Assembly: GCA_037576195.1 (NCBI GenBank)
Contig: CM075102.1
Span: forward strand, 16,550,745-16,614,744
Direction: 5' to 3'
From: Phytoseiulus persimilis
Taxonomy: Eukaryota > Arthropoda > Arachnida > Mesostigmata > Phytoseiidae
DNA: 64,000 nucleotides
Positions 1,828 to 52,676 of the stretch are shown here, in pieces. Under the pieces are notes generated by a model, which made no database searches, was not told where the DNA came from, and saw nothing but the letters and a program-made list of their open reading frames with translations. The position numbers and the translations under genes were made by a program. Position 1 is the stretch's first letter. Each line of letters starts with the position of its first letter.

Positions 1828-4800
1828 GGCCAAACTTCCTCTCTCCCTCTCGCTCTTACATCAAGTCCAACACAGCGCGCGGCCAGCCGGGCGCTCTGCA
1901 CAGTCGAAACCGTGAATGCGGTTTTCCACGGTGTGGTTTCTTCCGACACAGAGCTAGTTTTCATTCCGATTCCAATCTGCGACAATGGAGTCAATGAACT
2001 CATACCCGGGGAGCAGAGAATCCGATCCTGAGGAAGGTCGAGCAAACGCACGCCGAACTCTCCTGACGGTCCTGAGAATTGGCGAATCTCAGGCATTGGC
2101 TCTCCGAGTTCTATTTCGTCGAGCTCTTCCGAGAGGTTTCGATGCTTCCTCCTAGTTCTGGCTTTCACGTGTTCGAAGGACATGGGTCGAAAAATCGCAG
2201 CGAATTCCTCTAATGTCCCTCCCGCGGCGGTGGAAAACAGCTCTGTCACCGTTGATCCGAGAGAATATCCAATGCGATTCAGCAAATATTCTGCCACTAA
2301 GTAGGAGCGAAGGCTGAGACACGGGGCGAGAAAGAACTTCTACTCCGTTCTCTGCCCTATATCCATACGTGCGAATATTCCGGCTCGAATCTCCTTCCAA
2401 ACCTCGCCTGATGGCTGCGGGGGTCGAAACACTGAGTTCTTCGGGAAGAGTCTCCAGGACAAATTTTGGAAATTTAAGAATTCTCTCCAGTGGATTGGAG
2501 GGTTCGAAAACCTCCCATCGGAATTCCGGTTGCGGAAAAAGTTAAGCGGAGCGGGAACGACCTTGCAGAACCCATCTCCCCTGGTACTTGATGAGCTCCT
2601 GGTCGGGGATTGAGGGCTGGAGGAATAAGATACTCCGAGAAAATCGTGCCGTAGCGAGAGAACTGCAGCGCGATGCTTTCAAACAACAGGAAGTGTGACT
2701 CGCAGCGGTGAGCGACCGAAGGCGGAGGAGGGAGTTCGTTCGTCAGGAGCTCGTGTTAACGGTTTGCCCAAAAACGGACCGTTAAGAAATATTTGTTCGT
2801 GAAAGGGTTTCCGGTTTCCGCACGAGTCCGGCACATCTCCAGCCGCGGCGTCCAAGCCCAACCAGTCGAGCGGCTAGCCGCCCATTCAACCAACAAGCGA
2901 GCGAGCGAGCAACGGGTCTTCAGCGCGAAGCTGGCAAGTAAGCAGATGACACGTGGACTTCGGCAACAACAACGGCGGCGGCGACGACGATGACGACGAC
3001 AACGCAGAGAAACCGGGGGTGGATCGTCGTCGGACGTAGCCGATGGATGGATGGACGGATGATTGCTTCGTCGCAGACATATGGCATCGATGTTGTTTCT
3101 GAGCGACACACTAGAATGACTGCGCCGCGCGCCTGACGAACAACCACGAACGAACGCAAATAGCATCGAAGACGACGGACTAGCTGGTTGGCTGGCTGAC
3201 TGACGGGACATCCGCCCGCCATCGTTCGTACCGTCATCGCAGTTCGCCGCGCTGCGTGTATTGTTGCTGCTGCCGATGTCATTACTTATCGTCTGAAGCC
3301 GGTAGCTCCTCCTGAATCGAACATCGATGGGGATCAAGTGGGCGGATCGCACAGCTTTTCCCAGCATCGTTCAGGCCGCGGTCCAGCGATAGCCCTCCAA
3401 TGATCCGTCCAGATGACGATCGACCGATGGCGGATACTTTCCTGGAGTCTTCGTCTTGTTCCTCCGACCGAGTATTCCACGACACTCGGCTCCGGAAACA
3501 TCCTCTCGGCTCTTCTTGAGCTCTCCCCACCTCGAGCCCCCGGGAGGAGTCGGAGGCGCGCTCATCGAATTCAGCGGGAACCTGAATGCGACTGCCACGA
3601 ACGATTTGATCGCCGCTGACCTCGAAAATCGATTGCTCGGAGACATGGTCTCCACAAGTGCCGGAATGCGTTCAGTAGAGATTCAATCAATAACGTATCT
3701 GTGACCGCGAAAGGAGCAAAGCGTCCGTTTCCAACTGAGAACAAGACGACGGAGGGAAGCAGCGCGGGAGAGAAAAACTTATTACGCAGATGTTTAACGG
3801 CACTTGGCGCGCGACGTCGTCGTCGTCGCTGTTGTAGATCCAGGCAGATGTCTTGTGAAGAAGAAAGAAGACGTTTAACCGTCGGACGGGGAGCTGAGCC
3901 GTGAAGAACCACGTGCCCAACTCGCGGCATGGACGGCTTCCGACCGTTTTGTGTAGAACGGAACAGAGGATTTCAGAATCTACTCAACCGACTAACCGCT
4001 ACGAGCGAACGGCGCTGCCGCCGACGACCAGGATAGGGCAGGAATCAGGATGCAGGACGTCCTCAGGTGCGCGACGGATTAACGGTTTATGCGGGCGTCG
4101 TTTTACGCACCACACCCAGCAGACTATTTTTTTCCGCTGATTCGCTTGACCGTTCGTCCATCCATCGACCGCTGCGCCGGTCGGAACCGCCGGAGATCGC
4201 GATGGCACCGAGCGGTTCTTCGAGAGTGGAAAACGCAGCTGCAGGAGCTGATGTCAACGGATCTGCAAAAGTTCCGCGCGCGCACACCGAACTGGGCCAC
4301 GCACAGATTCTCCCAGAACCGACCGAGTTGGGCGGAGGCTCCGTTGTCGACGCTCCGATCGATTCAAAAACAAGTTGACTGAGAGAGACACCCGGAGATA
4401 CGGTGAGATCGAACGGCGACGGTCACTTCACCCCGCGAAAGCACTGCGCCCGCCGAGTTGCACTTGCCGTCGAACTCTCGACTCCGTCGGCCCCACACGA
4501 CAGCTGTGAAAAGCGAATTCGAACCGTCATTAATCCAAGTTCTGTGCGAACTCGGCCCGACTGCCACTTGCCCGTCGCTCAGCGCGAACACCGTGAAGAA
4601 ATAACGCAACGCCGGTCCCTCGTTGTGACCTCGTGTCTTGGTGGCAGCCCAACGACAGGGACGGTGTATCGCTCAGGAGGTCAGATCTGCCGCTTGCGCT
4701 TCCACTTCGGGGCTGGTTCCAATTTTCGACAGGTCCGCGGCAACGCGAAAGTCCCACGCCTTCGGGATGAGTGAATCAAACTTTTCATATTTATCATCGC

Positions 4801-7800
4801 TCGTAAGTGTGAATCGTCGCGCTATCGCAGCTTGTCGACCGCGCCGTCCGGTGAGCGATAATACGGATGTTCATTCCACTCGTCACGGGGAACGAACGGC
4901 GTTAGGGCCAATGAGGAAGTAGGTTGAAAATTAAACGATTTTCGGAGAAAACACACAACTAGATTCCGATGCGATATTCGCCAGTGGCTTCCAGCTCGCA
5001 GATGTTCATATCGGACGGAAAGAAGCTTTGAGTTACGACTCCGTCTTCGAGGGGGCCGTGCGGATACGATGCATCGTTCGATTGCTTCCATCTGCCCCTC
5101 CTCGGAGGTTTCGGTGTGAGAAAACTCCGACGACGATTTGCTCAAACGCTTCGTTCAGTTCATCTTTCGTTTGTTGTTAGATGTCTGCCAGCAGTAGCGG
5201 ACATTTGAGTTGTTGAAGTGAAACCCGTACGACAGTGACGTCGATTGCAGCTCACTCGCTGTGTCGGAAGTTTCGGTCAACCTCCAGAAGCGACGGCATC
5301 GCAGAGCGGGTCCGACGGACTTGGTCGCATCGTCGTTAGCAGCATTCCTTAGCCATGCGTTTCCTGGGCGCATATCAAAACAATGGCATTTCGGACATTT
5401 GGCCGAATGTCCTCCTGCAGCAATGCGTAGCATTCTGGCTCACTCGCTCGACTGACAGACGACGGACTGCCCCTGCGACGTCATCGGGCGGCCACGGAGA
5501 AGATCGGTGGCGAGATACAGAAGTAAAACACGGCGACGGAACCGACGATCAATATTACATCCGCGGGATGTGCACGGCGGAACATCGCCGAACAACATGA
5601 GAACCAGTGAGTTCTTCGATTCGGGTTCCTCCGATTCTCATTTCGAACGTTTGCTTCCAACATTGCGTTTCAAAACGGAGGCAGGAAATAGAAACATTGA
5701 GAGTAGCTCGAGAAAAGTACAGAGCTCGATGTCTGGCGCAAGGAGGTGACTCCGAGTGGCGGAAATCTTTTTCGCGTTGAAGTCAGTCTCACAATCGAAA
5801 TGGACCGAATGACTCTGGGAAAGTCCAAGTGCAATGGATGGATGGATTCCATCGGAGCACCTCAACCTTTAGATCTTCCCCACCTCAAGATCATATTCAT
5901 GAGAGGTGATCAAAGACTGGATGGCACGATTATTGAGTTTCGTTATGGAGGCCATGGGATACACTCCTTTCTCGTACTCCGATTAGCTGCAGCTCGTTCG
6001 AGCGATTTCAGAGCGGACAGAACGATTACGTCACACCTGTCAGAGGCCAGAAGTATTTGATGGACTATTTTTGAGCTAACGAGCGCAGAAATAGTAGACA
6101 GCGCCCAGCTTGGCTTCGGCCGTTCGCCAACTTTTTCATCCGCAGATCGGACGGTGGCAAACAGAGCCCCAACATAGCCATTTGATATACGGCAACGCTA
6201 CCTGCCTTTGTCACAGATCGCAGTCGCGGGAACGACTCGCCTCACCATCCAGTGAGTGCTGGGAGAAATCCTGGGGAGCGATCGTACGCAGCAATCTTCC
6301 GGAAGGTGTCAATCGGCGCGGAACATTTCACGAAATCACCGTTTTCTCCTCGACTGTGACGAATGTACTTGGCAATGTACGCAGAGCGGAGGCGTTCCTT
6401 GAATACTGGTTCATGTTCGCTGTTGAAGATGGTTCGCGACAACCCATCTTCCCAGGCGGAGGAACATGGAATCGTCAAGATTGGAAATCGAGCTACGGTT
6501 AGAAAATGACACATTCAGAGCAAGCTTGGTAAACTTCCTCCTGTCGAGTCGTCGTCGTCGCCGATAACTGAGCGACAGAAAGCGATGATGACGCGTGACG
6601 CGAATTTCGCGCTCTCGTCCAGATTAGTCCTTCCTTGGCGTTTAGCTTCAGCGTTCGTTCTCTCGTTCGCTTGTAATGAGTGCTTGATTGGGAGTGACGT
6701 CCTCTCATTGAAACCGTTTCCGCTGGCTCTACAAGAAATCGACGAGTCTCTGATTGGACAGTTCCTCTCGAAGTTCTCCCGAATGAATTTATTGCCACGC
6801 CGAGACGATATAGATTGTTTTAACCGACCGCCGTCACCCACTCCGCCTGCCGGGCCCGTTGTCGCTCGCGACAACCCGCGAGCCGGGATGGAAGCAGATT
6901 CGAGCGACCGCTGACTCAGTCCAGAATTTAGCGCAAGGCTCTCCGAGACAGATTGAAACACTGCATCGAAACAGTCACTCGAATATCCTCTCGATTAGTA
7001 CAACGAACGACGTCTCACGAATCCCAGTCCGCTTCCATCCTGGTCTTTTGAATCCGATTAGATTCAATGTTTCTGTCGTCGAGTCGGTTTGACCCAGAGA
7101 GTGTCCTCGATTAGTCAACAGTCGACTGTCGATGGCTATCTGCTGCGCCCGTTCTAAACTTCGGGCGGTTTCGCGGACGGTTTCGATACTTGAGCTCAAG
7201 ATGGACTGACGCAGTCTCCCAAAACTGACCAGGTCCGCTTCCCGCGGCAGAATCATCAGTTTGGCTCAACGGTTTTCCCGCGCAAATCCCGTAAACACGA
7301 AACGAAGGCAGCCCGAATGAGAAACGGGCACAAGCTGCCGAAAAAGCGAAAAGGAGCGGGCGTACAAGCAGTCGGCCGCGAAAGATTTCTCGAGGCGCGA
7401 GTTGGGTCAGTCGTAATTGGTTGTAATGACCGCTGTTGGTGAGCGAGTGTTCCGCAAAGATCTCTCCCTGGCTCCCACAGAGAGTTCACTTACTCATATG
7501 CTCACTCCATCATCAATACTCATCAAGTGATTCGATTACACAAGTCTTTGACACCTCCCCCGCACAGCTCGACTCGAGCATAAGCAGCGCGAGAAACGGT
7601 TGACCCTCAGCCATGAAACCGAACGAGCGAGTCGGCCAACCCCGGAGGCTTCGGATGAAAGGCAGACCAACCAACCAGCGGAAAGCTATTTGTGCTCGCC
7701 TTGACCAACGGTGAGGCAAGCGGTCGTCTTGGGGCGGAGGTAGCCGTTCATTCACTGGGTGGCGCGCGTCGCGGCTGAAAACCCGGTGAGACGCTGAACT

Positions 7801-8250
7801 CGACGTCGTTTCCGGTGACCCGTCCCCAAAGGGCGACCGCTCGTCGGTGTTTTCTAGAGCCGCGGCAGAAGCGGCTGGCTATTCACGTCGGAACTTCCAG
7901 CGGGACAACAATAGACAACGATCCGGAGTCTTTCACGGCGGCGCGTGGATGGCACGCTTTCACGACTGAATAGAAGATGAGCTCCTGGTTGGTCGGTCGG
8001 ACGGATTCCTGCTCGGCTGAAGTCGATGGCTTCGTGGATGGGTGCTCGACGGCCGCCCGCCCGCCCGCCCGCTCACCTCTTCCAGGGCGCGACCCAGTTG
8101 CCGGAGCCGGTGGCGTGCTTACTTCCCTCCTTTTCTTCCATATTATGATCGGATACACGCTTTCGGTCTCCCTCTCAAGTGCAGCGATCGACTCGAGCCG
8201 GACCAGCTCGAGCCGAAGGTTCAACCTGGGACCGGTCTGGGAAAATATTT

Positions 8251-8284: not shown

Positions 8285-9325
8285 TTCGCGCGGACACCCT
8301 CCGAACCCAGGCAGTCGGCGAAAACAACGAGATTCGCTGGTTTCGCGGAGATTTGGACACTGACACCGTGACACGGTTTCGCGTGTTTTTGATATAACAG
8401 ACAGACAAACCGATCTTTCAGCCGATCGGGACCGATCGAGCACCCGCTAGCCGTTGTGCCCTTCTGCTCGAGGCGCGGCGAGTGCGAAGCGATGCCGATG
8501 TCGGATCGGCGCTGAAACCAGCCCGGGCTCTCGAAAGCGACTGTTTAGAACGTCGCGTCGACAAAAAGACGTCCCTCCTCCTCGTGTTGTCCCTCAAAAC
8601 ATCGCACGGCGTGTCATCCGTGATGAATCACTTGGATGCGCGTTGATATTCCTAAATCGGGATTATGAACGCAGAGCAAACAGAACGACGACTGGTTTCT
8701 TGGCGAATTACTCAAGCTCGCCGTGGAGCGAGATCCGGTCTTTCTTCAAGACACTTCAATCCCCACCCTTGGGAAACAATGACGCGGACAACTCCGCGGT
8801 ACAAAGCTCGACACTTAACACTTTTCGCCTTTCTCCAATAAGAAAGATGTCGTGTGCACAAATACTGAGATGATTCGCCCAGAATTTGTCGCGCACGCCG
8901 GGCAATCTTGCTGGCGAATCCGCAGCAGAACAGAGTTTCGGCGGCGTTCTCTCTCGACGCCAGAATCGAACAAGCTCGCATCGATGCGACGCAACTCCCA
9001 CCGAGGGAGAAATCAGCTCGACTTCGGCAACGGGAGTCGCTGGACAGATCGAAACGCATCGGTTCCTCGATCGAACAAATTGAGCTGAGCGTCTCGACTC
9101 AAGATGGAACGCGAAAGTTGACTCTGATAGTCCCGGGTCGAAGCGGATCCAAGCCGTGAGTTTTCATTATTCTTCTAATTAGAAGCGGCTCCGACTACCC
9201 GAGTCGAAACAGTAGCACCAGTCTACCACACGGTCGATGATTCATCTGTCAGACCCCCGGGCCGGCTCTCTTTCGACGTCGTTCTCCTTCAGTTGAATCG
9301 TCTTCTTTCGCGAGCCCTGTGCATT

Positions 9326-31647: not shown

Positions 31648-32420
31648 TACGGGATGGTCATCGTAAGTCGGTAACTTTCCTACTGTCTCTTTTTTTGCTC
31701 ATAATTCAGTGGAAAACTGCCCGATTCCAGATTCTTGTTCGCGTTCGATAGCTTGAAGGATGGCGCATCTTCGATTTTCGTGAATCGGTGAAAAATTGAA
31801 TTGTGTGAATCGGCTCAAAATATTGTTTTTTTTCGGCTCCCCTCGAAAAAGTGATCGACAAAGGGTCTCGGCACTTCCTCGGCACTTTTGGCCTTGGGTC
31901 GGGCATTCGAATGAGATATATTGTGGCGGATACCACATCCCAAGAGAGCACCTTCTGTCCAGTCGGCGGGCTCCTAGCTGCCATGGTTTTTTTTTTCATA
32001 GCATGAAACATCTTCTGGACCGATTAGAACCGAGCGAGATTCGGAAACCTAAAATGCTCATATCTCCGTTATCTGAAGGAGTTCAGAGCTCATAAAGTGG
32101 GTTTTGTGAAGCTCGTGAATCCAGCGACGCTTCCTTCAGAGTTCTTCAACGATCAATTCGAATACCTTCAAAATGACCATCTCCAAAGTGAATGTTTCTG
32201 ACCCACTTCCTGGAGGTTGACCGTTGTTTCTAGTTTGTGTCATATTATGCCCCCCTTCAGTGCGAGCACAATGTGATAAACGGATCGAAACTAAAAAAAC
32301 GAAAAACTGAAAAACTGTCGTTGGTCACCCTGAATTCATCGAATTTCATGCGTAAACTCCAGAATATTTGATGGTGGAAGGCCCCGAGCCAAGGAAAATC
32401 ATATTCCGAGCCGTGGAACA

Positions 32421-32830
32421 CACGGAATCAGCCGCCCAGACACCACAAAGTTTGGTCAGATCGATCCCGGAATCACCCGCCCAGACCCCCAAAAGTATGA
32501 TCAGATTGGCCCCGGAATCACACCTCCAGCTTTTAAAAAGCATGGTCAGAGTGTTCCCGGAACCACCTCTCCAGGTTCTGAAGAGTATGGTCAGATGGGT
32601 CCCGGAATAACCCCTCCAGGTTTTAAGAAGTATGGTCAGATTGGTCCCGGAATCACCCCTCCAGGTTCTGAAGAGTATGGTCAGATGGGTCCCGGGATCA
32701 CCCCTCCAGGTTCTGAAGAGTATGGTCAGATGGGTCCCGGGATCACCCCTCCAGGTTTCGGAAAGTATGGTCAGATTGGTCCCGGAATCCCCCTCCAGGT
32801 CTCAAAAAGTATGGTCAAATTGGTCCCGGA
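32421..32830 (+). repeat. 45-bp minisatellite, about nine units
   Basis: Tandem units of 45 bases, each starting CCCGGAATCACCCCTCCAG and ending ATGGTCAGATGGGT or a variant; the central units are nearly identical and the outer ones degenerate. Because 45 is a multiple of three, one frame stays open and would read PGITPPGSEEYGQMG repeatedly, but no start, splice or family supports translation. An inverted single unit lies at about 33231-33290. Confidence 0.9.
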
Positions 32831-38438: not shown

Positions 38439-41400
38439 ATGAGATTCTTCCTCCCAATTGTTCTTCTGGCCGCGGGTATGATTCGCTCCTCAGGAACTGT
38501 GGACTACCTCTCAAACCTAGTTTCTGGTTTCAATTATCCATCCCGTAGGATCCGGATGGCGGATTACCGGCGACAACCCTCGGGTTCTTGATTTTGGAAA
38601 CTCAACTCTGTTCTTCTTTATTTCCAGCCGTTAGCGGCGAGGTTTTCCACTTCGTTGGTCAGCAAGGCAAGTCCACCGTCTACGGAGTTCGTGGTGCTGT
38701 CACCGTCGGAGTCCAAAAGCTCACCGGTGAGAAGACCGCCCTCGAGTACAACGGTACTCTTGCTCTCGAGCAAGTTCGCGAAGGCGAGTACCTCGCCAAG
38801 TTCACCCAGTTCACTCTTGGAAAGTACGACAAGATCAACAGGGAAATCAACGATGAAGCTTTCGGCGATCTCAAGCCTGAAGAGCAGCGTCTCGTCAAGA
38901 CCCTCCGTGACCAGGGCCAGTACGAGCACGAAATGCAGAAGCCTGTTAAGTTCTTCATGAAGGAAGGCAAGGTTGTCCGCGTGGAGGCCGCGAAGGAGCA
39001 CCAGGAGTGGTCCCTCAACATCTTCCGTGGTGTCTTCACCCTCCTCCAGAACCAGGTTCGCAAGCCCACCACCCTCGCTGTTCCCACCATCGAGTACAAG
39101 TACGAAGATGGCATCACCGGAAACTGCAAGGTTCAGTACGAGATCCTCTCCCAGCCCGAAGAACTCTACTCCCACGGCGGTGAGGTCTACAACATGACCA
39201 AGACCGTTGACTACACTGAATGTCTCGGCCGTCCCGTCTACCGTCACCTCAAGGATGTTCACCGCGGCTGCGCTGGAGTCTGCGACAACCACAAGCCCGA
39301 GAACTTCCTTGCCAAGTACGAGGAAGAACAGACCGACTACGCACTCAAGCCCACTCCCGGTTGTCCCGTCAACCAGCAGTTCCACGACTCCCTCATCACT
39401 GTGACCAATGTTGCCAAGTACAACATCAGCGGAGGCCTCCTCGAAGAAGCCGCCACTGAGTCCACCGATCTCTACCGTCTCTTCGGTGGTGAGATCCAGG
39501 TCTTCACTCGCCTCCAACTCCGTCTCCGCGCCGTCCAGGGTCCCAAGATTGAAGAGCCCCAGAATGTCAAGACCTTCACCACCCTCCAGCAGCGTCTCCC
39601 CGTCCAGGAGGAGAACGAGCTCGACATCCCCATCTACGCTCTCATGAAGGAACACTCCAAGCACCAGGAGTATCCCAAGTACTTCCAGAAGCACTTCGAC
39701 GCCGTCATCCGTGAGCTCCACCAGATCCAGACCCGCCAGCACCAGCAGGGTCAGAAGTACGGCCAGGAGCAACCGGCTTTCGAAACCCCCGCCTTCATGA
39801 TCGAACTCATCCAGGCCGTCTCTGGCATGACTGAGGAAGAACTCAAGAAGACCATCCCCGAAGCTGTTCGCCGCCAGCAGCCCAAGACCCTCTCCGAGGA
39901 GGATCAGCTTCGTCGCCAGCTCTGGATTGAGATCATCGGCAAGGCCGGTTCCAAGACCGCTGTCAAGCTCATCACCGAGTTCATCAAGAACAAGACTTTC
40001 ACTCCTTCCGAAGTCCGCCGTGTCCTCCAGGACGTCGCCGGTTTCCAGTCGTACCCCGACACCGACATGATCGAGCAGATCCTCGCTCTCTGCACCAAGC
40101 AGGAGGGTCTCACTCCCACTGGCAAGACCACCGCTTGCGTCGCCGCCGGAAAGATCATCTCCAAGGGTTGTGACTCCAAGGTCTACCAGAGGCACCAGAA
40201 GGAGCAGCAGCAGAGGAAGCAGGCCGCCAACGGCAAGTACCAGTCCATGAGCCGCTCCGAGGTCCCTGAGCCCGAATCTGAGGAATACGAGATGACCATG
40301 GGTCGCCTCGCTATCAAGCCCCAGCTCCGTTGCACTCCCGAGAAGCTCGAGCAGTACGTTGAGCGCCTTTCCCAAGCTCTTCGTCAGTCCACCGAGTTCA
40401 AGCAGGTCGTCGCCTACATCAACGCCCTCTCGAAGATCCAGAAGCCCGAGGTGCTCCGTACTCTTATCGGCTACGTCAACGGCACCGCCCCCAACATGTA
40501 CAAGCTCCGTGAGCAGGGTGAGCAGCAAGATGAGTCTGTCGACTTCGTCCGTCGCGTCGCCATCGTCTCCCTCCGCGACATCGCCACCAAGTACCCCAAG
40601 GAAATCAACCCCATCGTCCGCATCATCTACCAGAACACCACCGAGAAGGTTCAGACCCGTCTCGTTGCTTTCGACGTTTGGATGAACACCCAGCCCGCCC
40701 AATGGGAAGTCGAGAAGGTCATGTGGGTCGCCAACAAGGACAACTCTGTTGAGCTCACTCACTACGTCTACACCGCCCTCAAGACCGCCATGCACGCCGA
40801 AGAGCCCTGCTACCAGCTCCTGTAAGATTTCTGAATACTCCAATTTTTTGCTTTTGGCCCCCCCCCCATGGCGAAGGACAGTGGACTTGAACGCATGCGT
40901 CATCATCATCCCCCGTTTTGCTTTTTAGTGCTCAGCGCATCCGTGCCGCCTGGACCCAGATCCGTCCCTTCGACTCTGGCATGAAGTACTCCCAGTTCCG
41001 TTCCAAGTCTTACTACAACCGTGAGTGGACAGATAGTGGAGCCTATAGTGTCCGTGAGATGTATTCAAAGAGAGACGATGTCTCGAACCCATTCCCTTCT
41101 GAAAATTTCCTCGCTATTCACAGCCATCGAAGACTTCGGTGTCCGCGGTATCTGGAAGGTCATCACCTCCAACACCACTGTCCTCCCGGCTTTCACTCAG
41201 GCCAAGCTTGAGCAGGCTCAGGGCCCTTACATGAAGTACCTCTTCGGCGCCAAGCTCCTCGTCAAGGGTGGCGACAAGATCTGGGATGAACTCACCGGCA
41301 AGGATGGACTCCTTGAGCGCATCGCTCACGCCATCAACGGCCAGGTCAAGACTGGTGAACGCCAGACGCAGACTGAGCAGCTCATCAAGGACATCGCTCA

Positions 41401-44347
41401 GGGTATGGATGTCAAGAACTTCGACAAAGAAACTCCCAAGGCTGTTCTCTTCTGGAGGCTTCTCTCCGGTGAGGCTGTCATCCCCATCGACGCTGAGTAC
41501 GTCAAGGAGCTCAAGCAGGAGCTCCTCCAGACTGTCACCAAGATCGGCAAGGAGGGCGTCTCTGGTCACTACATCCGTGTCCTCGTCCCCACCAAGGCTT
41601 TCCACGTCGAGCCCACCACCATGGGTCTTCCCATCGTCCACTCCACCATCCACCCGATCGTGATCTCCGTCCGCTACGAGAACGTCAAGCTCCAATACAA
41701 GAACCAGGAAGGTCGTCTCCTCCCTGAATCTTTCGAGCTCACCGGTTCCTTCAAGCCCACCGTGCTTTCCTACCGCCAATCCCGCGTTTTCGTCGCCGAC
41801 AAGGTTGACCAAGCGACCCCCACCCTCAAGGTTTCGGGAATCAAGGAGTTCACCCTCGGCTTCCTCTTCAAGATCGGATACGAACACGGCCAGCGTCGTC
41901 TTCAATTCAACTTCAAGCCCAACTTCGAACGCGTCTTCCACTCCGGCCACTGCACCGAGCTCAAGCTCGAGAAGAACACCATCCTCGATGAGCAGCCCCG
42001 TGCCAACGTGGTCGATTACGGCAAGTGCATCAAGTCCCTCAACGAGCCCATTCGTCGCGAGAAGCAGATCGGCTTCGCCAAGACCGGCATGATGCTCCGC
42101 CTCACCGGTGAATCCCACCAGCCCTGGTCCGGCCTCCCCCTGTTCGGCTCCAAGGACACTACCCGCAACGGCGTCTTCGGCGCTTTCCTCGACCGTCTCG
42201 CCAACAAGGGCATGAAGCACCACGCCATCTCCCTCTACCTCGAGACTGACAAGCAGCAGCCCATGAACGAATGGTCCGCCATCATCGACATGGACTCCAA
42301 CATCGACGCTCTCGCCAAGATCCCCGTCGAGCAGCAGACCAAGCAGGCCCTCAAGATCAAGGTTCACTACCAGCCCCGTACTCAAGAACAGCTCAACACC
42401 GAGCTCCAGCAAGTCCTCGGCAAGGTCGAGACCCTTCTCCAGAAGTTCTCCGACAAGATCCAGGGCACCACCATCGAGAAGCAGCTCCTCGTCAAGCTCG
42501 AGGGTCGCTACCAAGGACAACCCATGAACACCATCAAGATTGCCATGAAGAAGATCCACAACCTCGAGGAGACCGAGCAGCAGTTCGCTTTCGCCGCCGA
42601 GTCCCAGCAGACCCGCAAGGCCATCGAGCTCTTCGCCAACGTCTCCTACCCCATGATCGGCTCTCCCTTCCACTACGACCCCTCCTTCAACGGAAAGGAT
42701 CAGCGCATGAACGGAACTCTCATCGCTAAGTTCCAGGGCCAGCAGGAACAGACCTACCGCGTCAACTTCCAGGCCGTCAAGTCCGACGAACAACGCCAGG
42801 AGTCTGAGCTCAAGTGGTTCGAGGCCCGCTGTCTCGCTGAACAGCAGGCTGGCAAGTCCATGACCGATGCCTGCAAGAAGGCCATCCTCAAGGACAACTC
42901 CCTCGACCGCATGGAGATGACCATCCAGCTCCCCAACAACGTCAGCCCCAAGATGGAGCAGCTCGCCAAGACCGCTCTCGCCGCTGTCAAGTTCCAGTTT
43001 TACCCCCAGATGCAGTCCGAGATCTCCGGTCGCCAGCAGGAGCAGCAGCTCAAGCAGAGGCAACAGATCCAGATCTCCGCCAACACCACCCGCGACTCCC
43101 AGTGGTCCCTCCTCTACAACGTCCGCGTTGAGATGCCCCGCGAGAACGTCACCTTCTCCAACATCCGCCTCCCCGGCTTCCGCCCCGTCCACATGCAGCT
43201 CTCCCAGAAGCAGCAGCTCGAGCACATCGTCGCTCGCGGCGAGTACCGCGACGTCTGCGTTCTCGGTGAGAAGGGCGTCCGCACCTTTGACAACGTCACC
43301 TTCGGTCTCGATGTCAAGACCGGCTGCGAATACGTCCTCACCCGTGACCAGACCACCGAAGGCCCCACCGACTTCACCGTCACCTTCAAGGTCGTGAACC
43401 AGGAAACCTTCGCCAAGCAGGTCCGCGTCCAGCTCCTCAACACCCTCGTCGAGCTCCACCCCTTCACCACCACCGACCGTTTCTTCACCGTCGCCATTAA
43501 CGGCACCCAGCACAAGATCACCTTCGACAAGCCCGTCATCTCCTACTACGGCGGCAACAAGCGTGTGTACATCAACGCCTACAACACCGCTGACGTCCAC
43601 GACACCCCCGTTGTCGAGCTGTACACCGACGCGAAGGAAATCCGCGTTCTTTTCGACGGTCACTCCGCCGAGACCGTCGTCGCTCCCAAGTACAAGGGCC
43701 GCGTCAACGGCATCTGCGGTAACAACGACAACGAGAAGACCCACGAATTCATCGGTCCCCACGGCAAGGAGTACAAGCACGCCAACGAGTTCATCGCTTC
43801 CTACGGAATCGGTCAGACTTGCCAAACTCCCGCCGAGAACACTCAGGAGAAGATGATGGAGAAGCTCAACCAGCACCTCAAGCAGATCCGTCAGCAAGAA
43901 CAGCTCAAGAGCACCACTAGGCGCGAACAGATGTACCAGGATTCCCAGTTCCAGAGCCAGCCCCAGCATTGGCAAGACGAGATGAAGGAGTTCCACCACA
44001 GCAGCGAACAGAGCTCCTGGGAGGAGCCCCGTGAGGATTGGGGTCAGCAGCCCTGGACCAGCCAGGAGAACCACCACACCCTCAAGACCGCTGTCTCCGT
44101 CGAGAAGGAGCACATCTGCTTCTCTGTTGAGCCCGTCCCCGCTTGTCAGCAGGGTTACCGCAAGGAAGGTATCCTCCGCACCAAGCACGTCCAGTCTATC
44201 TGCCACGAGAAGCACAGTGATGTTGCCAACAAGGCTATGCAGGATATTCGCAGAGGCATCATCATTGATGTTTCTCAGCTCGAGAAGGGCCACACCGGCC
44301 GTCTCGCCACCCTCGTCAACATCCCCAAGTGCGTCCGTCGCGACTAA
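38439..44347 (+). CDS. Vg: vitellogenin A (large lipid transfer protein)
   Basis: Secreted yolk-protein precursor that carries lipid to oocytes. Exons 38439-38475, 38628-40821, 40929-41020 and 41124-44347 join in phase to 1848 residues, a normal size for arthropod vitellogenin. The first exon gives a signal peptide (MRFFLPIVLLAA, continuing AVSG in exon 2). The lipoprotein N-terminal (LPD_N) region spans about 20-740, a DUF1943-like middle about 780-1060, and a von Willebrand D domain about 1486-1660 with GICG at 1637-1640; a Cys pair follows at 1773 and 1782. Codon choice is strongly biased to C-ending codons, as in highly expressed genes, which also creates very long antisense frames. The paralogue lies inverted at 46.6-52.7 kb. 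A tick-type hemelipoglycoprotein carrier is a less likely reading because of length and GICG. Confidence 0.93.
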
Positions 44348-44351
44348 ATTC

Positions 44352-44357
44352 AATAAA
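44352..44357 (+). terminator. polyadenylation signal of vitellogenin A
   Basis: AATAAA starts only five bases after the TAA stop codon, implying a very short 3' UTR. Confidence 0.7.
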
Positions 44358-46623
44358 ATTCGATTTGGTTTGGATTGACTGCCGTATCATCTTTCCTACG
44401 GATAGCCAACTCGCATCAATCACTAAATGTGTCAAGACTCGACATCCGTATACCTCATTCCTTCGGTTTCCTCCTCCCCCTAAATGAGCAGTCGCATTCC
44501 GGCACCGCGACTCAGCCGAGTGATTGATGGGTTTGTACTGGGGGGTCGCTGTCATGGCGACTCATCCTGAATCCATTCTTAGTACTTCTCTCTGTGCTGG
44601 TTAGAGTTCGATCGCATCCAGAGCTCCAAAGGCGGCTCGCAGCTGGGAGAGTGGTAGAGTGCACTAAGCGGCAGATCGATGCCTCTCCCTCAGCTCAGAA
44701 ATCATTGAATTGGTTACCTGTTTCTCTGTTCTAGGAATCCTCCCTCGTCACTCACAGGTTCTTCCGTTCTCGTTATATGAGGTCGAATGTACATCCCGGA
44801 ATTCAGGCATGAGTAGTTTAACGCCATCCATCTGTTTATTAACTCGAAGGGATGAATGGGTGTTCCATGCCACGATTTTTCATTGAGCCATCCTTACATA
44901 TTTCTCCCGCCATGATATTGTCATTCGAATTCGCCGTGACTGTCATCAGCGACAAACCCGGGCATCTGAACACTTCATAGGGTGCCTTGTACGGAATCGG
45001 AATAATTGTCCCGGAAACTCCCCTCGGTTTACACATCGAGTCGTCAATTTCAGGAATCCAGCTCTGATGGGCATCATTCGGATTCGACGATCCGGAACCA
45101 ATCCGTTCATCCTGGGACCATTTCCGAATCCGAATCTGAATCCAAATCTGGGATTCGGACTCGAGTCCGGATTCGTGTCTACATTTGATTCCAGATTCGG
45201 ATATCTACGTGAATTCGAGTCTCGATTCGATGTGCATGCGTTTCCGGCAGCCTCATATGGCCAACGGACGCTGCGGCGCCCCAGGTTCCAGAATTCACTC
45301 CGTCGTTGGGGCGCCGCGACACTCATGGTGGCCTGCACCCGCTCCGCCGACCCTGGACGGAACGTTTGCTTGACAACTAGAGATATCTTCGGTTCGGAGT
45401 GAGAAATGGGGAGCCGCAGTTTGGACCGATATCGCTAACAGTGAGCCACTGCATCGATGGCCAGGGGATTCCGCTCTGCGCCGAAGCCTTGATTCCGACA
45501 GCTTCCATGTGATTTGTAATAATTCTTTGATTTCGTTTACGAATGATTGAGTTCAGCGCCAACTTATTCTTCAAACACCATACTCAGCTCACTGCTCCCT
45601 CTTCCGCCGCTGCTCTCTCTCGCTAGTCGTATCTCCACGGGAACTGACCTACCCTCACGATGTTCGGTCTCTATTTTTAAAAATTGCTTCAATTTCTTGA
45701 ATCAATGATGCTCTTCATAGTTTAACAGCCTGATGGAATCGCCTGGATAATTTCCATCCCAGTTTCAAGAAGGCTGAATGATCCACAGAACATACTCGAA
45801 TGGAAGGGCATTTGCGTCTCTTCACCGACCCCATGAAAGAGTGCTCGTCTCCAGGATCATGTCTGTTGGTTGGGGAGTACAATGACGTTTACTCTGGGTC
45901 ACCTCGCAAGGATGGGATGCCCGTGTACTCTCTCATCATCCCGAGAAGTAAGTGTCTACGAGAGAATACCCAATCATCCGGAAGTGCTGGAGATGAAATG
46001 GTACCCGAAAAATTGAGGAATCGTATCCCACAAATCACTTCCGATCCATGACTCCCCCCTCCCTTGTTTCCTAATCGAAATCGTGAAAATCATCGAGAAG
46101 GGCTCGATACCATCTGATCGGCTCTTCGAGGGAGCCAAGAGACAATGATTGTCGATATAACGAAGGTCTGTGAGCGGGCTCACAATCTTGCCCTGCGCCT
46201 CTGGCTTAGCGAATGATTGACCTGTTCCTCAGAAATTCGGCTCAGAGTTTGGAAATTCAGTTCTGCAGTCTCTGCTTTCTCGAAACTGTCTCTGTGAGCA
46301 TCAGTGGCTACGGTAGACGAACTACTCCGGGTATACTTTCGACCGAGATCAATCCTTAGGACTTTGAAGAGACTAGTTATATAGCCAACCTAGGAGCACG
46401 GGTTCCTCGCCCGCTGTCTGCAAAAGCACTGAAACGATGAGAATGACTGTTTGAGTACCCAAGGAGTCATAACTCCTTACAGTCCCACCGCGTGTTAACC
46501 ACGCACCTGGTCATGTGGACCAACTTTTCTGTGCCAGGTCACGCTTTTGTCCGAGTCCCCCGATATGAGCTTCTCGCACTTGAATAAGAACTGGAAGATG
46601 GAGACACTAACTTGAGCGGACGA
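44358..46623. other. spacer between the convergent vitellogenin genes
   Basis: No gene recognised. At 45060-45250 there are degenerate GAATCC/GATTCG hexamer-like repeats around a perfect 14-base palindrome (45156-45169, CGGACTCGAGTCCG). I see no obvious inverted similarity between the two halves of the spacer, so the high identity of the genes does not extend into it. Confidence 0.5.
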
Positions 46624-46629
46624 TTTATT
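46624..46629 (-). terminator. polyadenylation signal of vitellogenin B
   Basis: AATAAA on the minus strand, 23 bases after the TAA stop codon at 46653-46655. Confidence 0.7.
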
Positions 46630-46652
46630 GCTACATAACCGACGAGATTAAC

Positions 46653-49600
46653 TTAACGACGCACGCACTTAGGGATGCTGACGGAGGTCTTGACACGCTC
46701 AATCTGATGCTGCTCAAGTTCAGAGATGTCAATGGTGCCGTGTTTGCGGACACGCTGCAAGGCATCACGAGCGAGGTGGCTGCTCTTCTCGAGGCAGACG
46801 GACTCGACTTGTTCGGTGCGGAGAACACCCTCTTTGTGGTAGCCGAACTCGCAGGCAGAGACGGGTTCCACACTGAAACAGACGAGATCCTTCTGAGAGG
46901 ACACGTGGGTCCTGGGACTGTGATGGTCGTTGTCGTCACGCTCGGCGATCCTGGCCATGAAAAGCGTCGGTTCGTCGAAGTCCATCCTCTGGTTGGCGTG
47001 GAAGAATTCCCTCATCTCTTCTCTCCACTCTTTCCGCTGGCTCTGGAAATTGGTATCGCGGTCCATCTGCTCACGCCTGGAGCTGCTCTTGCGCTGCTCC
47101 CGGCGACGGAGCTGGTGAAGTTCGCGATCGAACGCCTCCATCATCTTCTCCTTGACGTCCTCGACGGGGATTTTACACTGCTGCCCGATGCCGTAGGAAG
47201 CGATGAATTCGTTGGCGTGCTTGTATTCCTTGCCGTTGGGGCCGATGAATTCGTGGCTCTTCTCGTTGTTGTCGTTGCCGCAGATTCCATTCAGCTGACC
47301 CTTGTATTTGGGACCGGCGATCGTCGCGACGGTTGCGGCGCCGTTGAAGAGAACAACGACGTCAGTCGACTGGGTATAAACGACGACAGTGGGCGTGCCG
47401 GAGTGTTTGGAACTGTCGAAAGCGCCAATGTATACAGCACTGTTATCGTATCCGAAGAAGATCGGAGCCAGAAAATTGACGACATGCAGAGTGCCGTTGA
47501 TGCGAACGCCGAAACGGGAGCTGTCCTTGGTGAAGGGCTCGAGCTCAACGATTGTGTTGCGGAGTTGAACGCGGACTTGTTTGGTGTTGGTCTCAGGGTC
47601 CAGGACCTTGAAGGTGACGGTGAACTCGTTGGGACCCGGGCTCTGGTCGCGGGTGAGGACGTATTCACATCCCCCCTGAACAGAGAGACCGAAGGGGACG
47701 TTGTCGTAGGTACGGCCGGCCGCAGCGCCAACGAAGCAGATATCGTTCCAGTTCCCGCGGGCAGCGACGCTTTGGAGCTGCTGCTGGAAGGAGAGCTGGG
47801 TGTGGACGGGACGGAGACCAGGAAGGCGAATGTTGGAGAGGGTGACATTTTCACGGGGCGTCTCGATGCGGACGTTGTACAGGAGAGCCCACTGGTAGTC
47901 GCGGACAGCGGTGGCGGCGATGTGGATTTCCGGCCTCCTTGACCCCGTTTGCTTCTCCTGCTGCTGGCGACCAGAGATCTCGGATTGCATGTGAGGGTAA
48001 AAGTGGTACTTGACAGCGTCCAGCGCGCTCTTGGAAAGCTGCTCCATCATGGGGCTGACGTTTTCAGGGAGCTGGATGGCGATTTCCAGGCGGTCGAGGG
48101 AGTTCTCTTTCTTGATGGCTTTCTGACAGGCATGACTCATCACACCGCCGGACTTCTGCTCAGCGAGACAGCGAATCTCGAAAGGTTCGAGCTCAGGATT
48201 CTTCCGCTGACCTTCGGACTTGACAGCCTGGAAGTTGACGCGGTAAGTCTGATCCTGATCACCGTGGAGCATGGCGATCAGAGTGCCGTTCATGCGAGCA
48301 TCGTCGCCAGTGTCGGTGGGATCGAACTCGAAGAGAGGACCGAGTTTCGGATATGAAACGTTCGCGAAAACCTCGAAAGCCTTTCGGGCCTGTTGGGACT
48401 CGGCAGCGAGAGCCATCTGCTGCTCAGTCTTGTCGAAGTTGTAGATCTTCTTCATTGCGATCTTGACGGTGTTCTTGGCCTCGCCTCGGTGGCGACCCTC
48501 GAGTTTGACGAGGAGCTGTTCTTCGATGGTGGTGCCCTTGATCTCATCAGCGAACCTCCGGAGGAGAGATTCGGCGGTTCCGAGAACCTGCTGGAACTCA
48601 GAGGCGAGCTTGCCCTGAGGTTGGGTCTCGTCTTGAGCCTTAATCTTGTGGGCTCGCTTGGTCTGCTGCCTGATGGGAATCTTGACGAGAGCTTCGATAT
48701 TGGTGTCCACATCGATGACTGCGGACCACTCGTCCATGGGCTGCTGCTTGTCAGTTTCGAGATGGAGGGAGACGGCGTGGTGCTCCATGCCCTTGTTGGC
48801 GAGACGGTTCAGGAGAACGCCGAGAACGCCATTGCGAGCAGCGTCCTTGGAACCGACGACGGGCAGGCCGGACCACGGCTGATGCGATTCACCGGTGAGA
48901 TGCAGGATCATGCCGGTTTTGGAGCCACCAAATCGCTTCTCGCGACGAATGGGCTCGTTGAGGGACTTGATGCACTTGCCGTAATCGACCACGTTGGCAC
49001 GGGGCTGCTCATCGAGGATGGTGTTCTTCTCGAGCTTGAGCTCGGTGCAGTGGCCGGAGTGGAAGACGCGTTCGAAGTTGGGCTTGAAGTTGAATTGAAG
49101 ACGACGCTGGCCGTGTTCGTATCCGATCTTGAAGAGGAAGCCGAGGGTGAACTCCTTGATTCCCGAAACCTTGAGGGTGGGGGTCGCTTGGTCAACCTTG
49201 TCGGCGACGAAAACGCGGGATTGGCGGTAGGAAAGCACGGTGGGCTTGAAGGAACCGGTGAGCTCGAAAGATTCAGGGAGGAGACGACCTTCCTGGTTCT
49301 TGTATTGGAGCTTGACGTTCTCGTAGCGGACGGAGATCACGATCGGGTGGATGGTGGAGTGGACGATGGGAAGACCCATGGTGGTGGGCTCGACGTGGAA
49401 AGCCTTGGTGGGGACGAGGACACGGATGTAGTGACCAGAGACGCCCTCCTTGCCGATCTTGGTGACAGTCTGGAGGAGCTCCTGCTTGAGCTCCTTGACG
49501 TACTCAGCGTCCATGGGAATGATAGCTTCGCCAGAGAGCAGCTTCCAGAAGAGAACAGCCTTGGGAGTTTCCTTGTCGAAGTTCTTGACATCCATACCCT

Positions 49601-52600
49601 GAGCGATGTCCTTGATGAGCTGCTCAGTCTGCGTCTGGCGTTCACCAGTCTTGACCTGGCCGTTGATGGCGTGAGCGATGCGCTCGAGGAGTCCATCCTT
49701 GCCGGTGAGTTCATCCCAGATCTTGTCGCCACCCTTGGTCAGGAGCTTGGCGCTAAACAGAGTCTTCAAGTAAGGTCCACGATTCTGCTCGAGCTTAGCC
49801 TGAGTGAAGGCAGGGGAGACAGCGCTGTTGGAAGTGATGACCTTCCAGATGCCCCGGACACCGAAGTTTTGAGCCCCTACGGAGTGGAGAGCATGAACCG
49901 ATCAAGGTAAATATTATGCCTCGAACCATTTGGATTGATATAACAGCAGCGAGACAACTCTCCCACAGTCACTCACAGTCGTAGATGGATTTAGATCGGA
50001 GCTGAGAGTACTTCATGCCGGAATCGGAAGGACGAATCTCGGTCCAAACGGAGCGGATACGCTGAGCACTGCAATTCACGGTCGACTGTTATACGTATAA
50101 CCAACCCGATTGATCCTTTTCTGGGACAACGATACGTGGAACAAAAATGTTGGAGTTCTGCGATGACTCACAGAAGCTGGTAGCAGGGCTCTTCGGCGTG
50201 CATGGCGGTCTTGAGGGCGGTGTAGACGTAGTGAGTGAGCTCAACAGAGTTGTCCTTGTTGGCGACCCACATGACCTTCTCGACTTCCCATTGGGCGGGC
50301 TGGGTGTTCATCCAAACGTCGAAAGCAACGAGACGGGTCTGAACCTTCTCGGTGGTGTTCTGGTAGATGATGCGGACGATGGGGTTGATTTCCTTGGGGT
50401 ACTTGGTGGCGATGTCGCGGAGGGAGACGATGGCGACGCGACGGACGAAGTCGACAGACTCATCTTGCTGCTCACCCTGCTCACGGAGCTTGTACATGTT
50501 GGGGGCGGTGCCGTTGACGTAGCCGATAAGAGTACGGAGCACCTCGGGCTTCTGGATCTTCGAGAGGGCGTTGACGTAGGCGACGACCTGCTTGAACTCG
50601 GTGGACTGACGAAGAGCTTGGGAAAGGCGCTCAACGTACTGCTCGAGCTTCTCGGGAGTGCAACGGAGCTGGGGCTTGATGACAGGATGCTCGGCGGTCA
50701 TTTCGTACTCCTCGTTCTCCGGCTGTTTTTCAGAACTACTCTTTGAACCCATTCCTTGCTGCTTCTCCTCCTTGCCCCATTGACGAGCCTTAGAGTCACA
50801 ACCCTTGGCGATGATCTTTCCGGCGGCCACGCAAGCGGTAGCCTTGCCTGCGGGAGTGAGACCCTCCTGCTTGGTGCAGAGAGCGAGGATCTGCTCGATC
50901 ATGTCGGTGTCGGGGTACGACTGGAAACCGGCGACGTCCTGGAGGACACGGCGGACTTCGGAAGGAGTGAAAGTCTTGTTCTTGATGAACTCGGTGATGA
51001 GCTTGACAGCGGTCTTGGAACCGGCCTTGCCGATGATCTCAATCCAGAGCTGGCGACGAAGCTGATCCTCCTCGGAGAGGGTCTTGGGCTGCTGGCGGCG
51101 AACAGCTTCGGGGATGGTCTTCTTGAGTTCTTCCTCAGTCATGCCAGAGACGGCCTGGATGAGTTCGATCATGTAGGCGGGGGTTTCGAAAGCCGGTTGC
51201 TCCTGGCCGTACTTCTGACCCTGCTGGTGCTGGCGGGTCTGGATCTGGTGGAGCTCACGGATGACGGCGTCGAAGTGCTCCTGGAAGTACTTGGGGTACT
51301 CCCGGTGTTTGGAGTGTTCCTTCATCAGAGCGTAGATGGGGATGTCGAGCTCGTTCTCCTCCTGGACGGGAATGCGGTGCTGGAGGGTTGTTTGGGTCTG
51401 AACATTCTGAGGCTCTTCAATCTTCGGACCCTGGGAGCTGCGGAAACGAAGCTTCAGACTGGTGAAAACCTCGATCTCACCACCGAAAAGACGGTAGATG
51501 TCAGTAGACTGGGAGCGAGCACTTTCAAGGCGGCCATTGCTGACGTTGTACTTGGCAACATTGGTAACGGTGACAAGAGTCTTCCGACTTTGCTTGTGAA
51601 CGGGCAGAAGGGAAGAAGGCTCCAGTTCGTAATCGGTCTGTCCCTCCTTGGTAAAGATTTCCTCGGGGAACATCCGCGCGCGGGGAACATCTGTGAGGTG
51701 TCGGTAAACGGGACGGCCGAGACATTTAGAGTAATCAACGGTCTTGGTCATGTTGTAGACGTCACCGCCGTGGGAGTAGAGTTCTTCGGGCTGGGAGAGG
51801 ATCTCGTACTGAACCTTGCAGTTTCCGGTGATGCCATCTTCGTACTTGTACTCGATGGTGGGAACAGCGAGGGTGGTGGGCTTGCGAACCTGGTTCTGGA
51901 GGAGGGTGAAGACACCACGGAAGATGTTGAGGGACCACTCCTGGTGCTCCTTCGCGGCCTCCACGCGGACAACCTTGCCTTCCTTCATGAAGAACTTAAC
52001 AGGCTTCTGCATTTCGTGCTCGTACTGGCCCTGGTCACGGAGGGTCTTGACGAGACGCTGCTCTTCAGGCTTGAGATCGCCGAAAGCTTCATCCTTGATT
52101 TCCCTGTTGATCTTGTCGTACTTTCCAAGAGTGAACTGGGTGAACTTGGCGAGGTACTCGCCTTCGCGAACTTGCTCGAGAGCAAGACTACCGTTGTACT
52201 CGAGGGCGGTCTTCTCACCGGTGAGCTTTTGGACTCCGACGGTGACAGCACCGCGAACTGCGTAGACAGAGGAGTGACCTTGATGATTAGCGAAGTGGAA
52301 TATTTCGGCACTAGCGGCTGCAAACACACGGGGAAGAGCGTTAGATTCGTCCGCCCATCTAGGGTATATCGTCGCGTCAGACTAATCATCTCGAAACCCA
52401 GATCCGCGTGGATCCATTGAAGGTCTTCTCCCTGGATTGTCATGCTCCTCCAGCAATGCTGATCACAAGCGCAATCATAGACGTTCGTCCCACTCCTCAG
52501 ACTGCTGAGGGATATTCTTCGATCTCAGACAGTCTTCAGCTCACAGCGCGTCGACAGCACACCGAGTTTGTTCGAGTGCTCTGTTGACACTGAGATATTT

Positions 52601-52676
52601 CCGATTGGAACACTGTATCTCGCTCACAAATCGCCGTACCCGCAGCCAACAGTAGGGGGATGATGAAGAACCTCAT
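46653..52676 (-). CDS. Vg: vitellogenin B (large lipid transfer protein)
   Basis: Second yolk-protein precursor, inverted relative to vitellogenin A. Exons on the minus strand: 52676-52640, 52317-50172, 50068-49977 and 49876-46653, joining in phase to 1832 residues. Exons 1, 3 and 4 have exactly the same lengths as in A (37, 92 and 3224 bases); exon 2 is 48 bases shorter through two 8-codon deletions. Signal peptide MRFFIIPLLLAA then AASA; LPD_N, DUF1943-like and VWD regions as in A, with GICG present. Long blocks are almost identical to A, including synonymous sites, but the C-terminal half is clearly diverged. Around residues 1070-1073 B has REKR, a furin-type motif, where A has REKQ. Both genes look intact and functional. 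Confidence 0.93.

Follow-up and report, generated by a model that had tools for sequence, protein, structure and literature searches.

Mosaic identity between two tail-to-tail vitellogenin genes of the mite Phytoseiulus persimilis and its probable origin in gene conversion

Two vitellogenin genes, A and B, face each other tail to tail in the window analysed here (64,000 nucleotides of Phytoseiulus persimilis, assembly GCA_037576195.1, contig CM075102.1, positions 16,550,745 to 16,614,744), and their coding sequences alternate between near-identical and strongly diverged blocks. Judging from sequence comparison, this mosaic very probably (probability about 0.92) results from interlocus gene conversion after an old tail-to-tail duplication. 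A vitellogenin gene would have been duplicated long ago in this arrangement to give A and B. Introns and flanks would then have diverged almost beyond recognition, and the unconverted codons strongly. More recently, five patches with about 2.3 kb of coding sequence would have been copied at the DNA level into B, with A as the source of most or all of them, as codon usage suggests. The benefit might be that the N-terminal and open-beta-sheet parts are kept largely alike under two different promoters. The pair is laid out as follows:

38439-44347, + strand: vitellogenin gene A, exons 38439-38475, 38628-40821, 40929-41020 and 41124-44347
44348-46652, no strand: spacer of 2.3 kb between the stop codons of A and B, tail to tail
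52676-46653, - strand: vitellogenin gene B, exons 52676-52640, 52317-50172, 50068-49977 and 49876-46653

By reading frame and Pfam profile, A and B are intact vitellogenin paralogues of the large lipid transfer protein family, with their domains in order. Each has three introns, all GT-AG and at matching places. The frame is open through the introns of A (1,848 aa) and is also open in B (1,832 aa). The Vitellogenin_N, Vit_open_b-sht and VWD domains of A all score above the Pfam cut-offs. The 3' frame of B carries Vit_open_b-sht and VWD, and its 5' part matches positions 4-590 of the Vitellogenin_N profile without a stop. A sequence match with lipovitellin (1lsh) covers two stretches only and is too weak for placing the diverged islands on the structure. 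Elsewhere in the window, a tandem array of 8.6 copies of a 45-bp unit occupies 32447-32830 and could be a coding repeat, 45 being a multiple of three. It is flanked by an inverted repeat (31648-31862 and 33829-33572; 70% identity over 260 columns).

A blastn comparison of the window with itself gave one inverted match between A and B (38621-44340 against 52324-46657; 5,757 columns, 82.5% identity). In the four near-identical blocks that a sequence-only reading had proposed, exact runs reach 332, 322, 400 and 577 bp in the alignment. A two-state hidden Markov model (HMM) run on the aligned codons, with the low-rate state defining the tracts, estimated 0.005 differences per base in the tracts and 0.279 in the rest. 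Its log-likelihood was -2013.6, against -2447.1 with a single rate, a gain of 433.5 log units. The five tracts cover 2,290 of the 5,547 coding bases (about 41%) and contain 10 differences; the remainder is about 28% different. The segments, read along A (+ strand), are:

38694-39208 (B 52251-51737), + strand: tract 1, HMM, 3 differences in 515
39209-39600 (B 51736-51369), + strand: unconverted island, HMM and alignment
39601-40115 (B 51368-50854), + strand: tract 2, HMM, 4 differences in 507
40116-40314, + strand: unconverted, gap-rich island, alignment and HMM
40315-40818 (B 50678-50175), + strand: tract 3, HMM, 1 difference in 504
40819-41264, + strand: unconverted stretch with exon 3 and the introns on either side of it (2 and 3), 55 differences in 236 aligned coding bases
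41265-41454 (B 49735-49546), + strand: tract 4a, HMM, 2 differences in 190
41455-41489, + strand: diverged patch splitting block 4, 8 differences in 35
41490-42063 (B 49510-48937), + strand: tract 4b, HMM, 0 differences in 574
42064-44347 (B 48936-46653), + strand: unconverted 3' part, HMM, 635 differences in 2,272 aligned bases

The alternation of near-identical and diverged blocks described by the sequence-only reading is thus recovered by blastn, alignment and HMM alike. Its coordinates hold within about 55 bases, the first block ending near 39208 and the second near 40115. Its fourth block, placed at 41255-42060, is near-identical as stated but is interrupted by the 35-base diverged patch. 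The divergence that it placed after about 42062 is borne out by the differences counted beyond 42063. Tract 2 is itself composed of two parts (39601-39660 and 39669-40115), separated by an 8-base patch with 2 differences.

Such long identical stretches might also have been created during assembly, by collapse or mis-polishing of blocks in which the real genes differ. The longest exceeds a typical short read, and the pair is known from the assembly alone. However, the tracts (190-574 bases) alternate with diverged segments of 35-446 bases, which a collapse should have erased as well, and 10 differences persist within the tracts. Mis-placement of reads that are 20% diverged is, by reasoning, not normally expected, and related patterns occur in a second vitellogenin pair and in Hsp70 pairs (see below). 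An assembly artefact therefore appears quite improbable.

Outside the coding sequence, little similarity is left. The 300 bp upstream and downstream of A and B align like shuffled DNA (the observed score was reached by 38 and 132 of 300 shuffles, respectively). Introns 1 and 2 retain a weak trace of homology (1 of 300 shuffles each), and intron 3 a weaker one (13 of 300). The sequence-only reading had called promoters and introns clearly different. Flanks at random similarity, and introns with no more than a faint trace of homology, mean that an old duplication carries young tracts.

The silent sites lead to the same conclusion. Synonymous divergence in 30-codon windows is strongly uneven, as the sequence-only reading had anticipated: dS is 0-0.06 in windows lying wholly within tracts and mostly 0.3-1.4 elsewhere (minimum 0.18; one window undefined), with values of 0.15-0.28 in the four windows where a tract edge, or either of the small patches, falls. 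The values for the whole coding sequence are dS 0.351 and dN 0.144. The unconverted parts date the duplication before the tracts, by their dS as by their flanks and introns at or near random similarity. A simple recent duplication was rejected, because silent divergence is uneven and the introns, flanks and 3' part are diverged.

Chance does not produce runs of this length: up to 192 codons in a row are identical, compared with at most 35 when the codon columns were shuffled 10,000 times and at most 79 when 10,000 shuffles were restricted to silent changes. At silent sites the same codon is used in 733 of 739 cases within tracts, against 418 of 634 outside. Codon usage shows a bias, with GC3 at 0.70-0.83 depending on gene and region, which could be taken to mean that strong codon bias, or purifying selection, held the blocks alike without conversion. 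This is exceedingly unlikely. Independent draws by the two genes from the codon usage of the tracts would, through bias alone, give 509.4 (sd 11.3) identical codons among the 739. Moreover, measured against the second vitellogenin pair, which at about 25% identity is a coarse control, the blocks are no more conserved than the remainder (188 of 729 amino acids of A identical in tracts, 247 of 961 outside), so that constraint does not explain their identity.

A mosaic would likewise arise if A and B were young duplicates and the diverged islands had been imported from a third gene. However, the introns, the flanks and the entire 3' part are diverged as well, and when the 181-Mb, 127-contig assembly was searched with exon 2 and with exon 4, the best candidates being scored, nucleotide-level matches came from A and B only. 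An import of this kind is scarcely credible. Gene conversion, which the sequence-only reading had preferred to an evenly diverging duplication, is thus also favored over constraint, over convergence through codon bias and over import from a third gene.

The same reading had spoken of repeated conversion, which the tract ages do not establish. The numbers of differences in the five tracts (3, 4, 1, 2 and 0) fit one common age (simulated p = 0.152), and a single patchy event accounts for them as well as several events close in time would. Conversion of 'selected segments', likewise part of that reading, is at most a possibility. Many tract edges adjoin places where homology fails, such as introns and gap-rich linkers. 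Two of the unconverted islands are gap-rich and two hold introns, which agrees with tracts ending at a loss of homology. However, the edge at 42064 and the two small patches sit in ordinary aligned coding sequence, where such failure is no explanation.

The direction of copying is suggested by codon usage. With the second vitellogenin pair as a reference independent of A and B, the codon adaptation index of the diverged parts is 0.790 for A (95% bootstrap interval 0.756-0.822) and 0.473 for B (0.435-0.509), and that of the tracts is 0.775 and 0.771. Diverged A has 29 codons out of 1027 that are rare in the reference and diverged B has 143 out of 1032, compared with 14 and 15 of 745 in the tracts. 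The diverged part also contains 214 silent third-position differences, of which 134 have G/C in A and A/T in B, and 52 the reverse. When diverged blocks were held out and scored, all six from A were A-like and all six from B were B-like. Four of the five tracts scored A-like in both copies; the tract at 41265-41454 (63 codons) was ambiguous (-0.011 in the A copy, 0.062 in the B copy). The simplest reading of these codon preferences is that A was the donor and B the recipient.

Gene B also differs from A in its protein. The island at 39209-39600 encodes a three-cysteine motif (GC..VC.....GCPVN) in A and in the second pair that is absent from B in the alignment. B may consequently have lost a disulphide in its N-terminal part (51736-51369). 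Protein relative-rate counts in the islands assigned 18 changes to B and 8 to A (chi-square 3.85). In the tail, 41 changes fell on each; decay of B as a protein was rejected on this count, the equality indicating that B is not losing function overall. One speculative possibility is directional maintenance, in which a well-tuned A would repeatedly rewrite its codon-decayed mirror copy B. In that event, and just as tentatively, conversion would renew both the codon adaptation of the differently promoted B and its lipid-binding core, and the linkers and C-terminal regions would be left free to diverge.

On the same contig, 2.9 Mb from A and B, there is a second pair of convergent vitellogenin genes, C and D (C2:13.692 and 13.714 Mb). 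The two copies are 98.6% identical over 5,582 bp (dS 0.019), from an intron acceptor to about 13 bases past the C stop codon, and their flanks are unalignable. The two small 5' exons encode signal peptides that, read by eye, are similar but diverged, so that C/D is not a fresh copy of a coding part only. A three-state HMM distinguished the following features (p2, coordinates of the second pair):

C2:13691943-13714186 (approximate), tail to tail: C/D pair region, blastn and HMM
p2 3337-3353: identical 17-base piece in the otherwise unalignable 5' part, three-state HMM
p2 7493-7652: moderately diverged patch, 19 differences in 160, three-state HMM
p2 7785-7949: moderately diverged patch, 22 differences in 165, three-state HMM
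p2 8948-9001: moderately diverged patch, 5 differences in 54, three-state HMM

By these alignments, C/D exhibits the same kind of signature as A/B. Further Vitellogenin_N matches at C2:15.90, C3:8.96, C1:42.20 and C2:46.06 Mb show no blastn similarity to A/B or C/D; these four loci are perhaps other lipid-transfer proteins.

The second pair also bears on the nature of the template. If the donor had been a reverse-transcribed transcript, tracts would be limited to exons. No A/B tract crosses an intron, tract 3 stops 3 bases short of one, and C/D near-identity starts at an intron acceptor. However, after the second moderately diverged patch the C/D copies become near-identical again within the next intron (about p2 7952) and stay so through its 3' splice site, which points to DNA rather than cDNA as the template. 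All A/B tract edges other than 40818 are set back from the exon ends by more than 60 bases, and the introns are in any case too diverged for conversion. cDNA-mediated conversion appears improbable, DNA being the likelier template.

One other family, Hsp70, was examined in the same genome. Two copies in divergent orientation at C2:12.29 Mb are 99.3% identical over 1,922 bp, the match being composed of the coding sequence and about 16 bp upstream of the start:

962-2869 and 5926-7833 (L016 numbering, C2:12.29 Mb), divergent: Hsp70 pair copies, sequence match

The 200-bp flanks of this pair give 129/169 and 132/165 identities in gapped alignment. They show no special similarity, since clearly different copies score about the same (118/165 and 129/167), and the pair may be a recent duplication. 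Copies R and S, in direct orientation at C3:20337665 and 20345107, are 90.1% identical over 1,871 bp, with 20, 13, 22, 6, 1, 3, 14, 10, 2, 4, 11, 0, 3, 12, 21 and 25 differences in successive windows of 40 codons. From these counts the R/S pair looks mosaic; copies P and R differ evenly (11-24 per 40 codons). The inverted neighbor U at C3:20348714 is diverged (73.7% amino acid identity with S). The inverted layout to which the sequence-only reading had tied conversion is weakened as its cause: inversion seems neither required nor sufficient, because the direct pair looks mosaic and the inverted neighbor is diverged. Judging from the two families examined, conversion is probably not confined to vitellogenin.

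In mosquitoes, mosaic conversion between paired vitellogenin genes has already been published (Chen et al. 2010, PMC2875236, cited here from excerpts). Culex possesses two vitellogenin families, each a near-identical pair, and the C. pipiens Vg2 genes are tail to tail with 5,113 bp between them. Partial ('mosaic') conversion is described for Culex Vg2 (Vg2a/Vg2b), Anopheles, Aedes and Ochlerotatus. The unconverted parts have dS values of 0.37-1.37 (Table 5 of that paper), mostly under significant purifying selection, with 0.92 and 1.15 for Culex Vg2. P. persimilis resembles Culex in having two vitellogenin pairs; the tail-to-tail layout is shared with the C. pipiens Vg2 pair, and the mosaic conversion with Culex Vg2. 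However, Culex tracts span almost the entire gene, with introns and proximal 5' DNA included, whereas those of A/B are finer-grained, exon-limited and cover about 41%. The nearest mosquito mosaics are those of Aedes and Ochlerotatus, with tracts of 23-642 bp. The excerpts of PMC2875236 contain no assignment of donor direction.

Comparable behavior is known in other families. According to excerpts of a review (PMC3924832), the palindromic Hsp70 and Amylase pairs of Drosophila evolve in concert, and for Amylase this is limited to the coding sequence, the flanks evolving independently. They are similar to A/B in being linked mirror-image copies under conversion, but belong to other gene families and are supported by evidence from multiple species, while A/B comes from a single genome. 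In Caenorhabditis, conversion occurs in direct and opposite orientation, and diverged introns may impede it (review PMC3966223, in part).

Among phytoseiid mites, Neoseiulus cucumeris (173-Mb genome) carries both Vg1 and Vg2 in two copies (PMC6902594, in part), which fits the two vitellogenin pairs found here. N. barkeri Vg1 (1,856 aa) and Vg2 (1,843 aa) share the same three domains and resemble A and B in this respect; a Vg3 of 1,575 aa is also present (PMC7240613, in part). The main text of PMC6902594 contains neither 'gene conversion' nor 'tandem duplicat', and the portions of the two Neoseiulus papers covered here make no mention of gene orientation or mosaic identity in these vitellogenins. 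Within the literature collection searched, titles and the beginnings of abstracts contained no report of gene conversion in mite vitellogenins.

The mosaic conversion of paired vitellogenins known in mosquitoes would thus extend to a mite. New here are the codon-usage evidence for direction, the like signature of C/D and an indication that Hsp70 duplicates in this genome behave in a similar way. A single gene pair offers converted and unconverted codons side by side, and the contrast in codon usage makes donor direction testable. Whole-gene vitellogenin or Hsp70 trees from this genome may misdate duplications.
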